In this document: piece by piece, positions 39,704-50,028 of the stretch
How positions within the stretch are numbered: position 1 is the stretch's first letter
Layout: each line of letters starts with the position of its first letter
DNA from: Stenotrophobium rhamnosiphilum
GTDB lineage: Bacteria; Pseudomonadota; Gammaproteobacteria; Nevskiales; Nevskiaceae
DNA length: 64,000 nucleotides
Direction of reading: 5' to 3'
Assembly (NCBI RefSeq): GCF_003052265.1
Contig: NZ_QANS01000001.1
Span: forward strand, 248,001 to 312,000
Made by a program: the position numbers and the translations under genes
The notes under the pieces: model-generated
What the model saw: only the letters and a program-made list of their open reading frames with translations
Told to the model about the DNA's origin: nothing
Database searches by the model: none

Positions 39704-39855
39704 AAAAAATAATTATAATAAATATTATTAAATAATAAAAAACAATTTTTGCGGCTGAACCAGCTTGAGCGAGTGGGATAACCGAGGCGCAAGACTTCAG
39801 TTCCACTATCAAAGCGCTCATGCATGGGGCCGCGACATGTGGGAGGAGAGAAGTC

Positions 39856-42800
39856 ATGCGTTACCAAGGTCTAACAGGCTTACGGGCGTTGTTGCTGGGC
39901 GGCGCATTGCTGCTCGCGGCTTGCGATAGCACCCCCAAACCGGGCGGCACTACAACGACGCCACCAACGGTTCCCGGAGCGGTCATTCCCAAAGTAAGTG
40001 TCGCTGATGCAACAGCGGCGCAAACCGCGGACGACAGGCTCAGATTCAATGTGGTTTTGTCCGAGGCCACCACCAGCACCGTGCACGTGACTTACAACAC
40101 CGTTAATGGAACGGCGGTGGCAGGCACTGACTACTACGGCCAAACGGGCCGGACCGTGGTGTTCAATCCAGGTGAGGTCGCCAAGGTTGTTCAAGTGCAA
40201 CCCATCGCCAATGCTGCGGCGACGGGTAATAAAACAATGACGCTGCAATTATCAGCGCCGATCAATGCAACGCTGAATAGAGCGACCGCCACCGGCACGC
40301 TGACTTATGCCTTGCCGCAGGCGGTCATCTCAGATGCCTCCGCCGTAGAAGGTGATATTGGTGGCAGCAACAAGCTGAGCTTCGCGGTGACACTCGACAA
40401 GGCAGCGGCATCAACGATCAGCATCGCTTACGTCACTGGCAGCGGTACGGCGTCTGCGGGTACGGATTTCAGCGCGTCTTCTGGCAATGTCACATTCGCT
40501 GTCGGCGAAACTAGCCAGACCGTTGAAGTGGACGTGATTGGCAATGAAGACGTGCAAGCCAATCGCACGATGAGTGTGACGCTGAGCGGCGCGAGCGGTG
40601 CAACACTCAAGCGTTCGGTTGCGACCGGTACGATTACGGATGACGATCACGCGCGCCAGATTAATATCGATGACGCGACGGCTTATCGTGTTGATGGAAA
40701 TCTTACGTTCAAGCTGACGCTGGATAGCGCCAGTGGTCGCAACATCAGCGTGAATTACGCTACGCAAGATGGCACTGCGAAAGCAGGCGCAGATTATGTT
40801 GCGAAGAGCGGCACCGCGACTTTTGCTGCAGGTACGCTGGAGCAAATCGTTGTTGTGAATACGACTGGTAGCGATGGTGCGTCTGGAACCTTGAGTTTCA
40901 AACTGCTGTTAACCACGCCGGTCAACGCAGTGCTGGCCACCGGCGCTACTGAAGCCATCGGCACCATTCAAAGCAAACTGCCGCCTGCTGCCGGCAATAT
41001 TGATTTGCAGGTGTTGCCCGATGTGCTGACGGCAGATCGCTGCGATTTCTTCGACAACCATTACTGCTTGTTCCCATGGCCTAACGATCATTTCACCAAG
41101 GCCGATAGCAGCGCCGCAACGGGCAAGCGCATCAATCTCAATATTTTGTCGATGCCTAAAAACATTGCGGGCAAATCAATCGATCCGACGGAATGGAATC
41201 GCAACGATGGTTTCTCGCCGGGACAAGCGATCTTGGTGCGTATCCCGAATTTGAACACGGTCAAAACTGGCGCTGTGCCGCTGACGAATATTCGTGACAG
41301 CTTCCGCGATAGTCAGCCGATTGTTGTGCTTGATGCAGACACGGGCGAGCGTCATCTGATCTGGAGCGAGCTTGATGCCAATCTAACCAAGTTCACTTCC
41401 TGCGATGCGATTCGTCCGATTGATGCAGTGCTCGGTATCGCGGGTGATGCGGGCTTGCCTGCGGCAGAACAGATCAAGGAAGTCGGCGAGCAGCTGCGCA
41501 CGCAGTGCAAAGCCTTGCTGCCATCGATTGAGATCCCCACGTTTGATCCTGGCCCTGCGCTGATCATTCGTCCGGCAATCAACTTTAAAGAAGGCCATCG
41601 TTACATCGTTGCGCTGCGCAATCTCAAAGATGGCAGTGGCAATACGATTGCTGCGCCGCCTGCATTCCAGATTTATCGCGACAATCACAGCAGCTTGTTG
41701 CCGCAGATCAACAGCCGTCGTGCGCATATGGAATCGCTGTTTGCCAAACTGGGCTCTGCGGGTATACAGCGCAGCTCCTTGTATATGGCTTGGGATTTCA
41801 CGGTGGCCAGCGGACGCAGTTTGTCCGAGCGCGTGCTGAAGATGCGTGACGACTCACTTGCAGCATTGGGTGACACCACGCCGGGCGACGGCAATGTCCA
41901 AGGCAATGCGCCGACCATCAGCAAGATCACCGTGCGCGACAAAGTCAGCAGCACCATCGCTCGTGAAGTGCGTGGCGTGATTACGGTGCCTTCGTATTTG
42001 ACCTTGCCGAACGGTATCGCAGGTTCAAGGCTCTACTACCCACCGGGTTCACAGTTGCCGGGGCGTAACCCAACAACGCCAACGCAGACTTTCGATTTCT
42101 TGTGCCGCATTCCATACAAGGCTTTTGGTTTAGAGCGGAATGTCGATCCTTCTACGGCAACGACCGCTGTGCCCGCGCGAGTTGCGGTTTATGGACATGG
42201 ATTGCTGGGCTCCAAGTCAGAAGGTTCCGGGCAGGTCGGCGACATGATTGAGGAGAACAACTTTGTTTATTGTTCGACCGATTGGATCGGCATGGCCTCG
42301 CATGACACCAGTATCACTGCCGGCGAATTGGATACGACGTACTACGATCCGCCGTTTGGTGACGTGCTCAATGTGGTGACGATCTTGGCGGATGTGTCTA
42401 ACTTCCCAACGTTGGCGGATCGTGTGCAACAGAGCATGATCAACTTCACTTACTTGGGCCGTGCAATGTTGAATGCGAATGGCTTGTGCTCGCAGGATGC
42501 GTTCAAGGTCAACGGACAATGTGTGCTCGATCGACGCGAATTGTTCTTCGACGGCAATTCACAAGGCGGCATTATTGGTGGTGCTTTGGTGGCGATATCA
42601 CCTGATGTGAAAGCAGGTGTGCTCGGCGTGCCGGGCATGAACTATTCGACCTTGCTCCAACGCAGCGTCGACTTCGACATGTATGCCTCGCTGCTCTACA
42701 CCTCTTACCCGGGATCACTGGATCAGCAGTTTGTGTTGTCGTTCATGCAGATGTTGTGGGACCGCGCTGAGAACAACGGGTATGCGCAACATCTGAACGC

Positions 42801-43356
42801 CACCACGCCTTACGCCAACACGCCGCCGAAACGCGTGCTGTTGACGCCAGCTTTTGGTGATCATCAAGTCAGCATGACGACAGCAGAAGTGATGGCGCGC
42901 ACCATCGGCGCCAAAGTGCATTGCCCTGCGGTGGTGGGTGGTGCTTCTTCACAACTGGGGCCTGCAGTGAAATCTGGCGCGCATCCTGCGGTTACTGCAG
43001 AAGGCGTTGCGCGACCCGATATCAGCTTTGGTCGACGTCATCCAGACGACAAGCCGTATGACTATCTGCCTTGTGCGAGCGGCGATGGTGACGCAGGCAG
43101 TGTCTTGTCGGTATGGGACAGTGGTCCACTCGTTAAAGCAGATGGCTCAGCTAATCCCAATGGTGTTGCACCTCCACCCGTCACGAATACGCCACCACGC
43201 CCAGAACTGGGTTATGGCGCAGATCCGCATGAATTCCCGCGCAGCACAATTGAGGATCGTGCGATGAAATCAGACTTCCTCAAGATCGGCGGTGGATATG
43301 TCGATCATTGCGGCGGACAACCCTGCGCAACGCGTAATTTTAATCCGGCGCCTTAA
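39856..43356 (+). CDS. Large lipoprotein with Calx-beta domains and an alpha/beta-hydrolase-like C-terminus
   Basis: The 1166-residue protein starts at ATG 39856 with GGAGGAGAG upstream. A lipoprotein signal ends in the lipobox LLAACDS (Cys23; Asp at +2). Residues of about 45-370 form three Calx-beta-like repeats, with marks such as GTAVAGTDYYG, GTASAGTDFSASSGNVTFAVGE, ITDDDHARQ and GTAKAGADYVAKSGTATFAAG. The remainder (about 390-1166) is a large secreted-enzyme region. It contains YGHGLLGSKSEG (near 780), a GxSxG-type elbow DGNSQGGIIGG (near residue 900) and TPAFGDHQVSM (near 1000), consistent with an alpha/beta-hydrolase with Ser, and Asp/His candidates. It is probably a surface esterase/lipase; the substrate is unknown. 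Confidence 0.72.
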   Translation: MRYQGLTGLRALLLGGALLLAACDSTPKPGGTTTTPPTVPGAVIPKVSVADATAAQTADDRLRFNVVLSEATTSTVHVTYNTVNGTAVAGTDYYGQTGRTVVFNPGEVAKVVQVQPIANAAATGNKTMTLQLSAPINATLNRATATGTLTYALPQAVISDASAVEGDIGGSNKLSFAVTLDKAAASTISIAYVTGSGTASAGTDFSASSGNVTFAVGETSQTVEVDVIGNEDVQANRTMSVTLSGASGATLKRSVATGTITDDDHARQINIDDATAYRVDGNLTFKLTLDSASGRNISVNYATQDGTAKAGADYVAKSGTATFAAGTLEQIVVVNTTGSDGASGTLSFKLLLTTPVNAVLATGATEAIGTIQSKLPPAAGNIDLQVLPDVLTADRCDFFDNHYCLFPWPNDHFTKADSSAATGKRINLNILSMPKNIAGKSIDPTEWNRNDGFSPGQAILVRIPNLNTVKTGAVPLTNIRDSFRDSQPIVVLDADTGERHLIWSELDANLTKFTSCDAIRPIDAVLGIAGDAGLPAAEQIKEVGEQLRTQCKALLPSIEIPTFDPGPALIIRPAINFKEGHRYIVALRNLKDGSGNTIAAPPAFQIYRDNHSSLLPQINSRRAHMESLFAKLGSAGIQRSSLYMAWDFTVASGRSLSERVLKMRDDSLAALGDTTPGDGNVQGNAPTISKITVRDKVSSTIAREVRGVITVPSYLTLPNGIAGSRLYYPPGSQLPGRNPTTPTQTFDFLCRIPYKAFGLERNVDPSTATTAVPARVAVYGHGLLGSKSEGSGQVGDMIEENNFVYCSTDWIGMASHDTSITAGELDTTYYDPPFGDVLNVVTILADVSNFPTLADRVQQSMINFTYLGRAMLNANGLCSQDAFKVNGQCVLDRRELFFDGNSQGGIIGGALVAISPDVKAGVLGVPGMNYSTLLQRSVDFDMYASLLYTSYPGSLDQQFVLSFMQMLWDRAENNGYAQHLNATTPYANTPPKRVLLTPAFGDHQVSMTTAEVMARTIGAKVHCPAVVGGASSQLGPAVKSGAHPAVTAEGVARPDISFGRRHPDDKPYDYLPCASGDGDAGSVLSVWDSGPLVKADGSANPNGVAPPPVTNTPPRPELGYGADPHEFPRSTIEDRAMKSDFLKIGGGYVDHCGGQPCATRNFNPAP

Positions 43357-46483: not shown

Positions 46484-46500
46484 CTTTTAATTGGCACCAA

Positions 46501-46528
46501 AAAAAACCCCGCCGAAGCGGGGTTTTTT
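46501..46528. terminator. Bidirectional terminator
   Basis: AAAAAACCCCGC (46501-46512), CGAA loop, GCGGGGTTTTTT (46517-46528), between the acyltransferase and the convergent TpsB-like gene. Confidence 0.95.
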
Positions 46529-46544
46529 ATTACTACGATCTGAA

Positions 46545-48128
46545 TTAGATCTTGATGCTGACACGGAAGAACAAACGTGCGTCAGATGCATCTTTGACGG
46601 CGTCGGTGATGTTCTTATCGTTAAAGCTCTTGGCATACGACACCGAAGCGTCGATCAGCTGTGTGAACTTAACGCCGAGTTCCAAGCCTGCGTCGGTGAG
46701 CGTTTGAGCGCCATCAACCTGCTGAGAAGCCGTGTTTGGGTTCGAGTAAGTTGCAGAGCCGCGTTCAACAAAGATTTTTGGACGCAGTTCCAAGCCGTCG
46801 GTGATTGGCAGCATCACTTCGGTGAACACGCGTGCCAAGTAACCCTTGTCGCCAACGATCACGCCAGGCAGCGCGCTGGTGAGGTTGCCCATGCCGCCGA
46901 GCACCCACTGCTGCTGTTCTGGAACGGAGTCGCTGCTGTACTGGCCGCTGGCTTCAATGCCGGTAGCAATGCTGTTGTTCCAGAAGAACTTGAGCGATGC
47001 AGCAGGACGGAACAACAGGTAACCCTGATCGCCATGGATAGGCGGATTGGTCAGATCAACATTGGTATCGCCGTCGCCGAAGCCTTTACGTGCGGTCACG
47101 CCGCCGGTGAAGTTCCAGGTGTGGCCAATGAAAGCAAAGTTGCTGCCATACGACGTTGATGCTTCAGCGCTGGTGTACAGCTCGCGTTGATAGACGGCGC
47201 TTGACGTGGTGCCCGTTGCGTCGACCTTGCCTTCCTTGCTGGTGCGATCAACTTTGACCTGAACATTCCAACGGCTGTTGAAGTCGGAGTAGATCGGGTA
47301 GAGCCACAGCGCTTCGCCAACCCAGATGCGACCGAGCAAGTCGGTGCTGAACGGCCCAGTGGTGGTCGTGCCAGTTGCGGTGTAGTTATAGTTGATGTTG
47401 CGGCCGTTGATGCCGAATACGCCCCAAGGCGTTACGCGGTTCCAACCCACATTCTGTTCGTGATAGTCGCCGGGCTTGCCCTTGGCGTCGAGATTCTGAA
47501 TGCCCTCTCGTGCGAACACGCGGAACTCATCACCCCAAACCGAAGCAGTTTTGATTTCCAGATCGCCGAAGTAGCGGCTGGCAAAACGGTTGCCCGGGTT
47601 GCCGAACTCAACGCGAATCGTCGTTGGGTCGCTGGCTTGATTGTTCTTTTCAAAATCCAGAACCTGACCGCCGTTGCCATCGGGTTCAAAGACAGGGAAA
47701 ACATTAATGCCTGCACGATCAGCCGCCATGCTGGCGAGCGTGCGTTTGCCTTCCAGATCGCTATCGCGCATCGGGTCAGCCGTTTCGAGACCATTGAGAT
47801 AAGGCTTCAGCGCTTCGCTGGCACGAATGCCAGAAATTTTGCCCGGCACGACCAATACATACAGGTCTTGACCGGAAAGCGCGTAAGTCACCTGCGAGGC
47901 TGGATAGCCTTCGAGGTAAGCCGCTGCGCCAATATTGCGCACGGCATTGGAAAGATTGTCGGCAAGGCTAACTGCATTCTTGACCGTTTCTTCGTTAAGA
48001 ATATCGCCGGAGCTAACATGCAACTGGTAGTTCTGAAAGGGAACAGTGATTCCGCTACCAGCTTGTGACTGCAGCTGTTCGACGGTGCCCTGTTGCGGGG
48101 TGGCGGGTGGTGGTAGTTCTACGCTCAT
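46545..48128 (-). CDS. ShlB/FhaC/HecB-like outer-membrane transporter (TpsB family)
   Basis: The 527-residue protein has an N-terminal linker (about 1-28), two POTRA-like regions (about 28-110 and 115-175, GQDLYVLVVPGKISGIRASE) and a 16-strand-type barrel (about 180-527). The barrel includes the TpsB-like block WVLGGMGNLTSALPG...GDKGYLARVFTEVMLP near residue 415 and a final strand RLFFRVSIKI. TpsB proteins export a partner across the outer membrane. Oddly, from ATG 48128 no signal peptide is seen (MSVELPPPATPQQG), and the in-frame upstream sequence back to about 48200 encodes none either. It lies 151 nt downstream of the repeat-protein gene on the same strand, so that protein is its likely cargo. 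Confidence 0.8.
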   Translation of the reverse strand: MSVELPPPATPQQGTVEQLQSQAGSGITVPFQNYQLHVSSGDILNEETVKNAVSLADNLSNAVRNIGAAAYLEGYPASQVTYALSGQDLYVLVVPGKISGIRASEALKPYLNGLETADPMRDSDLEGKRTLASMAADRAGINVFPVFEPDGNGGQVLDFEKNNQASDPTTIRVEFGNPGNRFASRYFGDLEIKTASVWGDEFRVFAREGIQNLDAKGKPGDYHEQNVGWNRVTPWGVFGINGRNINYNYTATGTTTTGPFSTDLLGRIWVGEALWLYPIYSDFNSRWNVQVKVDRTSKEGKVDATGTTSSAVYQRELYTSAEASTSYGSNFAFIGHTWNFTGGVTARKGFGDGDTNVDLTNPPIHGDQGYLLFRPAASLKFFWNNSIATGIEASGQYSSDSVPEQQQWVLGGMGNLTSALPGVIVGDKGYLARVFTEVMLPITDGLELRPKIFVERGSATYSNPNTASQQVDGAQTLTDAGLELGVKFTQLIDASVSYAKSFNDKNITDAVKDASDARLFFRVSIKI

Positions 48129-48162
48129 GACAATCCCTGTTGCTTTTCTTTGAGATGGCGGT

Positions 48163-48179
48163 ACGAGTGAGTCACTCGT
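48163..48179. promoter_or_regulatory. Perfect operator-like palindrome upstream of the TpsB-like gene
   Basis: ACGAGTGA-G-TCACTCGT: 8-bp arms around one base, 35 nt upstream of the TpsB-like start. It could be a regulator site or a small mRNA hairpin. Confidence 0.5.
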
Positions 48180-48235
48180 CCGTCCGCTTATGCCCTCAGT
48201 GATTTACAACTCCGACGTGTGGTCTATGCCACGTT

Positions 48236-48264
48236 CCGGCGCCTCAAAGCAAATGAGGCGCCGG
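48236..48264 (-). other. GC-rich stem-loop after the repeat-protein gene
   Basis: CCGGCGCCTCA (48236-48246), a 7-nt loop, TGAGGCGCCGG (48254-48264). An 11-bp perfect stem 16 nt after the repeat-protein stop. It lacks a U-run in the transcribed direction, so it may stabilise the upstream mRNA or cause partial termination, giving more cargo than transporter. Confidence 0.65.
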
Positions 48265-48279
48265 ATTTATATCGGCAAA

Positions 48280-50028
48280 TTAATTCTTTGCAGCAGCAAC
48301 CTTAACTTTTGGCACGCAAGTATCTTTCGACTTCTTGCTTTGGTTTTTCTTCAGGTCGCTGGACAAGCACTGGTTGTCTTCGTTGCTCTGGTTGCCGATA
48401 CCATGATTGCCAGGGTTGCCAAGGTTGGGCGGGATAGCTGCGCCGCCGCCGACGTTGCCGCCGATGACGCCGCCGTTGCCGGAGCCAGGGCCGTTGAGCA
48501 CGCCGCCGCCGATGACGCCGCCGTTGCCGGAGTTGGCGCCGTTCAGTACGCCTGCACCGAGCGTTTTGCCATTGCCCGAGCCGTCGCCGTTGAGCACGCC
48601 TGCGCCAGCAATTGAACCGTTGCCGGAGTTGGCACCGTTCAATACGCCTGCACCAACGCCGGTTAGGCCGTTGCCGGAGTTCGCGCCGTTGAGCACGCCG
48701 CCGCCGATGACGCCGCCGTTGCCGGAATTAGCGCCGTTAAGAATGCCTGCACCCAGAACGCCGCCGTTGCCGGAGTTGTCGCCGGTGCCGCTTGACTGAC
48801 CATTGAGCACGCCAGCGCCGATGACGCCGCCGTTGCCGGAGTTAGCCGTGTTGAGAATGCCTGCGCCGACGGTGCCGCCGTTGCCGGAGTTGTCGCCGCT
48901 GAGCACGCCAGCGCCAACAAACGTGCCGTTGCCGGAGTTAGCGCCGTTCAGTGCGCCAACTGCCAGAGGACCGCTCGCGCTGTTGCTGCCGTTGAGAACG
49001 CCAAGGCCCAGTGCAGAAGACTGTGCGGTGTTGTTGCCAGACAGAAGTGCTACGCCGAGCGCGCCGCCGTTGCCTGCGTTATCGCCAGCCAAGATGCCGA
49101 CGTTAAGCAGTGGGTTGGAGGTCGTGACTTTGCTGCCACCGATCTGGATGCCAGGGAGAATCGTTGTAACTGGGATCGCAGCCTGTGCCTGGCTGGCGAG
49201 CGTGTTCAGGCCCACCGTGTTGCCATTGACAGAGATCGAGAGCGGATCACCTGCGTTCAGCAGGCTAATGCCCAGGCCCTGAGAGGCCTTGCCGCTGTTG
49301 CTGCCAGACAGTGCAGCCAGTGCGAGGATTTGGCCGTTGCCCGAGTTGGCACCGTTGAGAACGCCGAGGCCAATCGTACCGTTGCCGGCATTGCTGCCGC
49401 TGAGTGCAGCGACGCCAGCGCCAGCTGAATTACCGGTGTTGTTGCCGTTGAGAATGCCCAAACCGAGCAGGCCTGCGCCGTTGCCCGAGTTGTTGCCGTT
49501 GAGGATGCCCAAGCCAAGCAAGCCACCGTTACCGGCGTTGTTGCCCGAAAGTGCGGCGACGCCAGCGGTGTTGCTGTTGCCGGTGTTGTTGCCGTTTTTG
49601 ATGCCAAGGGCAGCCAGACCGCCGTTGGCGTTGTTGTTGCCGGAGAGGGCAGCAACGGCGGCCAAACCGCTAGCAGCAGCGTTGGTGGTGTTGTTGCCGT
49701 TGGCAGCGCCGACGGCAAGGATGCCGCCGTTGCCATCAAGACCCAGAAGCGGGGTCACGAGGCGGTTGTTGAGCTGCTGACCAATAACATTAGGCGTCTT
49801 GCCGCCGCCGAGGCCGAGGCCCAGAACCTGACCAATACCGGAGCCGTCTGCGCCGTTGGTGAGTGCGGTAACACCGAGAACGCCTGAACCCGGCGTTGTT
49901 GGGAGGACGCTGAGGGCATTAGCAATGCCCGTCAAAAGAGGGCCAACAATTGGCAGCGTTGCAGCGGTTTGTGCCATCGCAGCACCGCTGACAAGGGATA
50001 GGGTTAAAACAGCGGTTTTCTTGAACAT
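48280..50028 (-). CDS. Secreted Asn/Gly-rich protein with 16-residue repeats
   Basis: The 582-residue protein has a signal peptide (1-19, AMA|QT). A unique N-terminal region (20-98) is followed by repeat block 1 (about 100-255), a 48-residue non-repeat insert (256-303), repeat block 2 (about 304-525) and a Lys-rich tail with two cysteines (554, 571). The unit is 16 residues, typified by AGVLNGANSGNGGVIG; Leu/Val/Ile and Asn-Gly recur at fixed positions, as expected of a beta-solenoid. I do not recognise the family. The repeats recall mycobacterial NxGxGN proteins and heptapeptide/pentapeptide solenoids but match none exactly. It is probably surface-exposed or released via the adjacent TpsB-like pore. 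ATG 50028 is chosen for the signal peptide and an upstream GGAG. Confidence 0.78.
   Translation of the reverse strand: MFKKTAVLTLSLVSGAAMAQTAATLPIVGPLLTGIANALSVLPTTPGSGVLGVTALTNGADGSGIGQVLGLGLGGGKTPNVIGQQLNNRLVTPLLGLDGNGGILAVGAANGNNTTNAAASGLAAVAALSGNNNANGGLAALGIKNGNNTGNSNTAGVAALSGNNAGNGGLLGLGILNGNNSGNGAGLLGLGILNGNNTGNSAGAGVAALSGSNAGNGTIGLGVLNGANSGNGQILALAALSGSNSGKASQGLGISLLNAGDPLSISVNGNTVGLNTLASQAQAAIPVTTILPGIQIGGSKVTTSNPLLNVGILAGDNAGNGGALGVALLSGNNTAQSSALGLGVLNGSNSASGPLAVGALNGANSGNGTFVGAGVLSGDNSGNGGTVGAGILNTANSGNGGVIGAGVLNGQSSGTGDNSGNGGVLGAGILNGANSGNGGVIGGGVLNGANSGNGLTGVGAGVLNGANSGNGSIAGAGVLNGDGSGNGKTLGAGVLNGANSGNGGVIGGGVLNGPGSGNGGVIGGNVGGGAAIPPNLGNPGNHGIGNQSNEDNQCLSSDLKKNQSKKSKDTCVPKVKVAAAKN

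Follow-up and report, generated by a model that had tools for sequence, protein, structure and literature searches.

A signal-peptide-less TpsB-like pore beside a 16-residue-repeat protein: a candidate divergent two-partner system

The two genes described here lie side by side in a 64,000-nucleotide stretch of Stenotrophobium rhamnosiphilum DNA (the window), and we read them, with a probability of about 60%, as a divergent, surface-anchored two-partner (type Vb-like) system in which a long repeat protein would be secreted through the adjacent pore. This reading is favored because the genes are adjacent, because no TPS domain is found in the repeat protein, and because a pair of cysteines at its C terminus resembles the disulfide tail of some TpsA proteins. 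The pore has a TpsB-like fold, yet it fails two tested defining features of canonical TpsB/Omp85 proteins. An earlier note on this DNA had proposed a noncanonical two-partner pair in which the novelty lay in the cargo; a two-partner pair is still the best reading, but the pore turns out to be noncanonical as well, having no leader, having lost the VRGY/F motif, and carrying Glu in place of a conserved Asp. We consider the leaderless pore to be the most interesting point of the system; it was not among the claims of the earlier note and is new here.

Results

When the open reading frames were re-read, the coordinates, the shared strand, the 582-residue size of the repeat protein, and the 151-nt spacing first reported for the pair were all reproduced, with the repeat gene lying upstream and both genes on the minus strand (Table 1). 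The hairpin between them is not followed by a T run on the operon strand and is therefore not a classical terminator; plausibly, it sets expression of the cargo above that of the pore. Intergenic hairpins of 8 to 14 bp, unrelated in sequence, were seen at many other pore loci but not at all of them. On its other side, the pore gene is separated by a terminator-like inverted repeat from a convergent acyltransferase-like gene. Elsewhere in the window (39820-43356) is a gene for a 1178-aa lipoprotein-like protein that, judged by eye, combines Calx-beta-like repeats with a hydrolase-like C-terminal part.

Table 1. Coordinates of the features of the locus, numbered from the first nucleotide of the window
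Feature	Position	Strand	Description
Repeat (cargo) gene	48280..50028	-	582 aa, ATG start, Sec signal peptide, 16-residue Gly/Asn/Leu repeats, two-Cys tail
Cargo signal peptide	49972..50028	-	Residues 1-19, MFKKTAVLTLSLVSGAAMA; read from sequence
First 16-residue repeat block	49255..49719	-	Residues 104-258; in the model each repeat forms one beta strand, pLDDT about 60-76
Nonrepeat insertion splitting the repeats	49108..49254	-	Residues 259-307; also in homologues
Second 16-residue repeat block	48454..49107	-	Residues 308-525; from model and autocorrelation
C-terminal tail, Lys-rich	48283..48453	-	Cys554 at 48367-48369, Cys571 at 48316-48318
Intercistronic hairpin	48235..48265	-	12-bp perfect stem, z -5.2; between cargo stop and pore start
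TpsB-like pore gene	46545..48128	-	527 aa, without signal peptide; two POTRA domains and Omp85-type barrel
Conserved N-terminal tag of pore	48093..48128	-	MSVELPPPATPQ; family M-A-[IV]-x-L-P-P-P-x-x-P-Q
L6 region of pore	46839..46922	-	Residues 403-430, PEQQQWVLGGMGNLTSALPGVIVGDKGY; site of VRGY/F in canonical TpsB
Terminator-like inverted repeat with A/T runs	46500..46529	(.)	By eye; absent from inverted-repeat scan output

The signal peptide attributed to the repeat protein is seen directly in its sequence, and the mature protein would be about 51 kDa. The 16-residue repeat that had been noticed is not a product of chance: the lag-16 autocorrelation of the protein was 0.290, whereas shuffling its residues gave 0.136 ± 0.014 (z 11.4). 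The Lys-rich tail with two cysteines was likewise found as described, and Cys554 and Cys571 are the sole cysteines of the mature protein. In the predicted structure, strands recur with a spacing of about 16 residues and fall into two blocks (residues 104 to 258 and 308 to 525), with a mean pLDDT of 55, values of about 60 to 77 in the repeat core, and values below 50 in the tails. A Foldseek search with this model gave no significant match, and the weak ones (E of 0.39 and worse) were mostly beta-helices. A beta-solenoid is the likely fold on the strength of the model: the regular solenoid that the earlier note had looked for is apparent in the strand spacing, but the confidence of the prediction is only moderate.

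Consistent with the claim that the cargo has no visible TPS domain, no Pfam domain, the TPS domain included, was detected in the window repeat protein at E values up to 1, searches of NCBIfam and PDB returned no sequence matches, and an N-terminal NPNG motif is absent. Nor was a Pfam-detectable TPS domain present in any of the 10 repeat proteins (the window protein and nine relatives), a very diverged one being conceivable. The C-terminal Cys pair recurs in 13 of 14 solenoid proteins, with the first Cys at most 36 and the second at most 15 residues from the C terminus. By analogy with known systems, the pair may form a disulfide loop that anchors the repeat protein, and after adjacency it is the strongest clue to the mechanism.

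The pore gene is present in 41 of the 85 genomes of the order, and full-length members also occur outside it (G195, G311, G167, G290, and G644); named records include Hydrocarboniphaga effusa, Panacagrimonas, Solimonas aquatica, Abyssibacter, and a Nevskiaceae MAG. No relatives were found in viral contigs. The repeat protein is more restricted, having relatives in 12 of 194 related genomes, and in 10 of these 12 carriers its gene directly adjoins the pore gene (named records with the pair include Panacagrimonas, Abyssibacter, and a Nevskiaceae MAG). In G069 the repeat gene ends at a contig edge, and in G073 there is no pore gene within the 13 kb read around it; the pore gene of that genome is on a separate contig, next to a gene for some other small protein. 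Two genomes from outside the order, G195 and G167, encode more diverged repeat proteins near the pore gene. Across 340 genomes of the class, the repeat profile matched nothing beyond its own genome at an E value of 1e-10, although G167 and G195 do encode diverged ones. Adjacency conserved across genera had been proposed as support for the pairing, and repeat proteins occurring mostly without the pore gene as evidence against it; what we found is same-strand adjacency, in several genera.

In other pore clades, the place of the repeat gene is taken by genes for different signal-peptide proteins, among them a 125-aa class (eight loci), a coiled Arg/Gln-rich class (three loci), an EF-hand class (three loci), and further types. 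Other branches of the pore family have a different small secreted partner, so the family has several types of cargo, the repeat protein among them. When partners were assigned by eye over 50 pore loci, 28 loci had a plausible one encoded immediately upstream in the same orientation, about 7 more had a candidate close by but differently arranged, and about 15 had none; the H. effusa locus has no obvious partner, though it is the sister of a repeat-bearing locus. The suggestion of a new cargo class for TpsB proteins is supported by the lack of a detected TPS domain but is incomplete: the repeat protein is not the only partner type, and roughly one in three pore loci has no obvious partner at all. 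Partner class follows the pore tree, requiring 4 changes compared with a shuffled mean of 14.2 and a minimum of 10, in a test on 28 rows with a class common to several loci in which near-identical rows add to the signal.

Several of these loci have further features of their own. S. aquatica (L051) carries two tandem pore copies, each after its own 141- to 156-aa partner of a single class, and in L057, L059, L060, L062, and L066 the 125-aa partner is present in two tandem copies upstream of one pore gene. Beside diverged pores, the signal-peptide proteins of L136 (5345-6475) and L069 (4089-5129) are OmpA-like by eye; for that of L140 (13279-14307) the likeness is less clear.

The pore was predicted to consist of two POTRA domains and a barrel (pLDDT 82, pTM 0.78). 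Its best structural matches were CdiB (6wim, Z 27.8) and FhaC (4ql0, Z 27.1), to which the model aligned over 420 to 454 residues, and BamA and TamA scored below them; the pore is therefore TpsB-like in fold. The likeness to ShlB/FhaC claimed for it is weak when the window protein is taken by itself, since that protein matched Pfam ShlB (PF03865) with an E value of 0.012 and did not reach the curated cutoff, but it is upheld by the CdiB/FhaC fold and by the relatives, since 22 of the 26 members of the family alignment matched PF03865 at E 0.01 (best, 1.4e-10). The pore family is monophyletic and forms its own clade, separated from the canonical TpsB controls by a branch with support of 100. 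Outer-membrane barrels usually have an aromatic final residue, and this is so in 39 of 48 pore proteins; the barrel strands and, mostly, the aromatic residue are conserved in relatives down to about 23% identity.

At L6, none of 46 family members has the VRGY/F motif, in place of which most have x-x-A-[YFW]-L-P-G. The salt-bridge Arg of L6 is kept in 10 of 48 pores and lost in 38, compared with retention in 23 of 25 controls, and the L6 Gly is replaced by Ala or Ser in 47 of 48. The Asp of F/GxDxG, which controls keep in 22 of 25 cases, is Glu in 46 of 48 pores (FxExG). In known Omp85 structures, this Arg-Asp pair positions L6 (PMC5422565).

Such changes to the hallmark residues of L6 and beta13 are among the arguments for an alternative in which the barrel sits in the outer membrane but has ceased to secrete, and its partner is a periplasmic or surface accessory (a plug, lid, or anchor) within a structural complex. 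The partners also fit this alternative, being diverse and often small (108 to 170 aa), some with EF hands, and so under the size range of TpsA proteins (PMC5422565), as does the presence of OmpA-like proteins beside some members of the pore family. We nevertheless regard a nonsecreting barrel as unlikely, since the POTRA domains are retained and, in the solenoid class, the partner has the length, the repeats, and the terminal Cys pair expected of a surface-anchored TpsA.

To cross the inner membrane, a bacterial outer-membrane barrel is expected to use a signal peptide. We found none in the reading frame of the window pore or in those of its family, and the N terminus is devoid of a hydrophobic core; nearly all pore sequences examined begin instead at a short tag, typically M-A-[IV]-D-L-P-P-P-x-x-P-Q. 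The first 12 residues ranked 9th of 515 windows by information content, level with the L6 and POTRA-barrel junction blocks. A DNA-pattern search for the tag in the pore's own genome was uninformative: it gave one unconnected match and missed the window pore gene, because the second codon of that gene is AGC. If the leaderless pore has an element for targeting or assembly, the tag is the obvious candidate. No precedent for a leaderless Omp85/TpsB protein was found in the open-access literature, which does not prove that none exists.

Because the pore has no signal peptide, its location in the outer membrane is not assured. It might be a cytoplasmic or otherwise repurposed Omp85 relative, with a neighbor linked to it for some other reason, and the strongly conserved N terminus without a hydrophobic core, together with the want of any consistent signal peptide in other frames at 42 loci, would suit a protein that is not exported. 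This is improbable, given that the conservation of barrel strands and C-terminal aromatic residue would be unexpected for a soluble role and that, where a partner is present, the neighbors mostly bear signal peptides.

Less probable still is that a signal peptide lies hidden, through a frameshift, a distant start, or provision in trans, and that this is an ordinary two-partner system with unusual cargo. What speaks for a hidden leader is that 24 of 25 canonical TpsB controls from the same searches have a signal-like core (pores and controls being screened with our own hydrophobicity rule, not a trained predictor). At the 42 pore loci, however, in-frame stops occur 2 to 45 codons upstream in most cases and a signal-like hydrophobic core in any frame is present at only 4, in differing places, which makes a leader gained by frameshift or from an earlier start unlikely. 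The tag is, moreover, among the most conserved blocks of the pore, and many pore starts are preceded by a rightly placed Shine-Dalgarno-like sequence. Accidental adjacency, with the repeat protein secreted by another route, is the least credible account, for although partners are missing at some pore loci and the repeat gene of G073 is not linked to a pore gene, the linkage holds in most carriers over several genera and partner class tracks the pore tree.

Discussion

We favor a two-partner system in which the Sec signal peptide would take the repeat protein across the inner membrane, the POTRA domains of the TpsB-like barrel would capture it, and threading through the barrel would follow. Outside the cell, the protein would fold as a beta-solenoid and may serve as a surface fiber. 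Its C-terminal cysteines would join in a small disulfide loop, retained in the periplasm, that keeps the fiber attached to the surface, as in TpsA proteins of the HMW1/HxuA type, in which two C-terminal cysteines lock the tail in the pore (PMC5422565); for some TpsA proteins, a C-terminal disulfide is known to remain periplasmic and to act as the anchor (PMC5422565; PMC8151025). Counting against the two-partner reading are the missing leader and altered L6 residues of the pore, the lack of a detected TPS domain in the cargo, the pore loci with no obvious partner, the unlinked repeat gene of G073, and a cargo model whose overall confidence is low and which found no significant structural match.

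A more general proposal is that a whole clade of Omp85/TpsB-type barrels needs no Sec signal peptide to reach the outer membrane, is delivered there by way of the M-A-[IV]-x-L-P-P-P tag, and secretes classes of cargo without a TPS domain. We offer it tentatively and consider it doubtful as it stands. A pore family that keeps its barrel, swaps the leader for a short tag, and alters L6 offers a direct test of the signal-peptide rule. On the cargo side, the system would provide TpsB-type pores with partners that have no detectable TPS domain, some of them very small, and such partners would help to tell what the pore itself needs for recognition from what the known TPS domain adds.

With respect to known systems, an ordinary canonical TPS was rejected because neither a TPS domain nor VRGY/F was found. 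The window pore and its family share with TpsB proteins (FhaC, CdiB, and ShlB; PF03865) the two POTRA domains and the Omp85-type barrel, as well as a partner gene that adjoins the pore gene, mostly on the same strand. They differ from them in having an N-terminal LPPP tag and no signal peptide, an altered VRGY/F, FxExG for FxDxG, and a separate place in the tree (support of 100), and the Pfam ShlB score of the window pore itself falls below the cutoff. The repeat protein resembles TpsA proteins of the HMW1/HxuA type in its signal peptide, in repeats expected to form a beta-solenoid, and in its two C-terminal cysteines, but differs in its strict 16-residue Gly/Asn repeats and in having no detected TPS domain or N-terminal NPNG; no sequence match to it was found, and at its mature mass it is smaller than TpsA proteins, which are about 100 to 650 kDa (PMC5422565). 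The open-access literature yielded no precedent for TpsB cargo without a TPS domain, which does not prove absence. BamA and TamA have the same barrel fold and POTRA domains as the window pore, which differs from them in having only two POTRA domains and in its linkage to a secreted partner.
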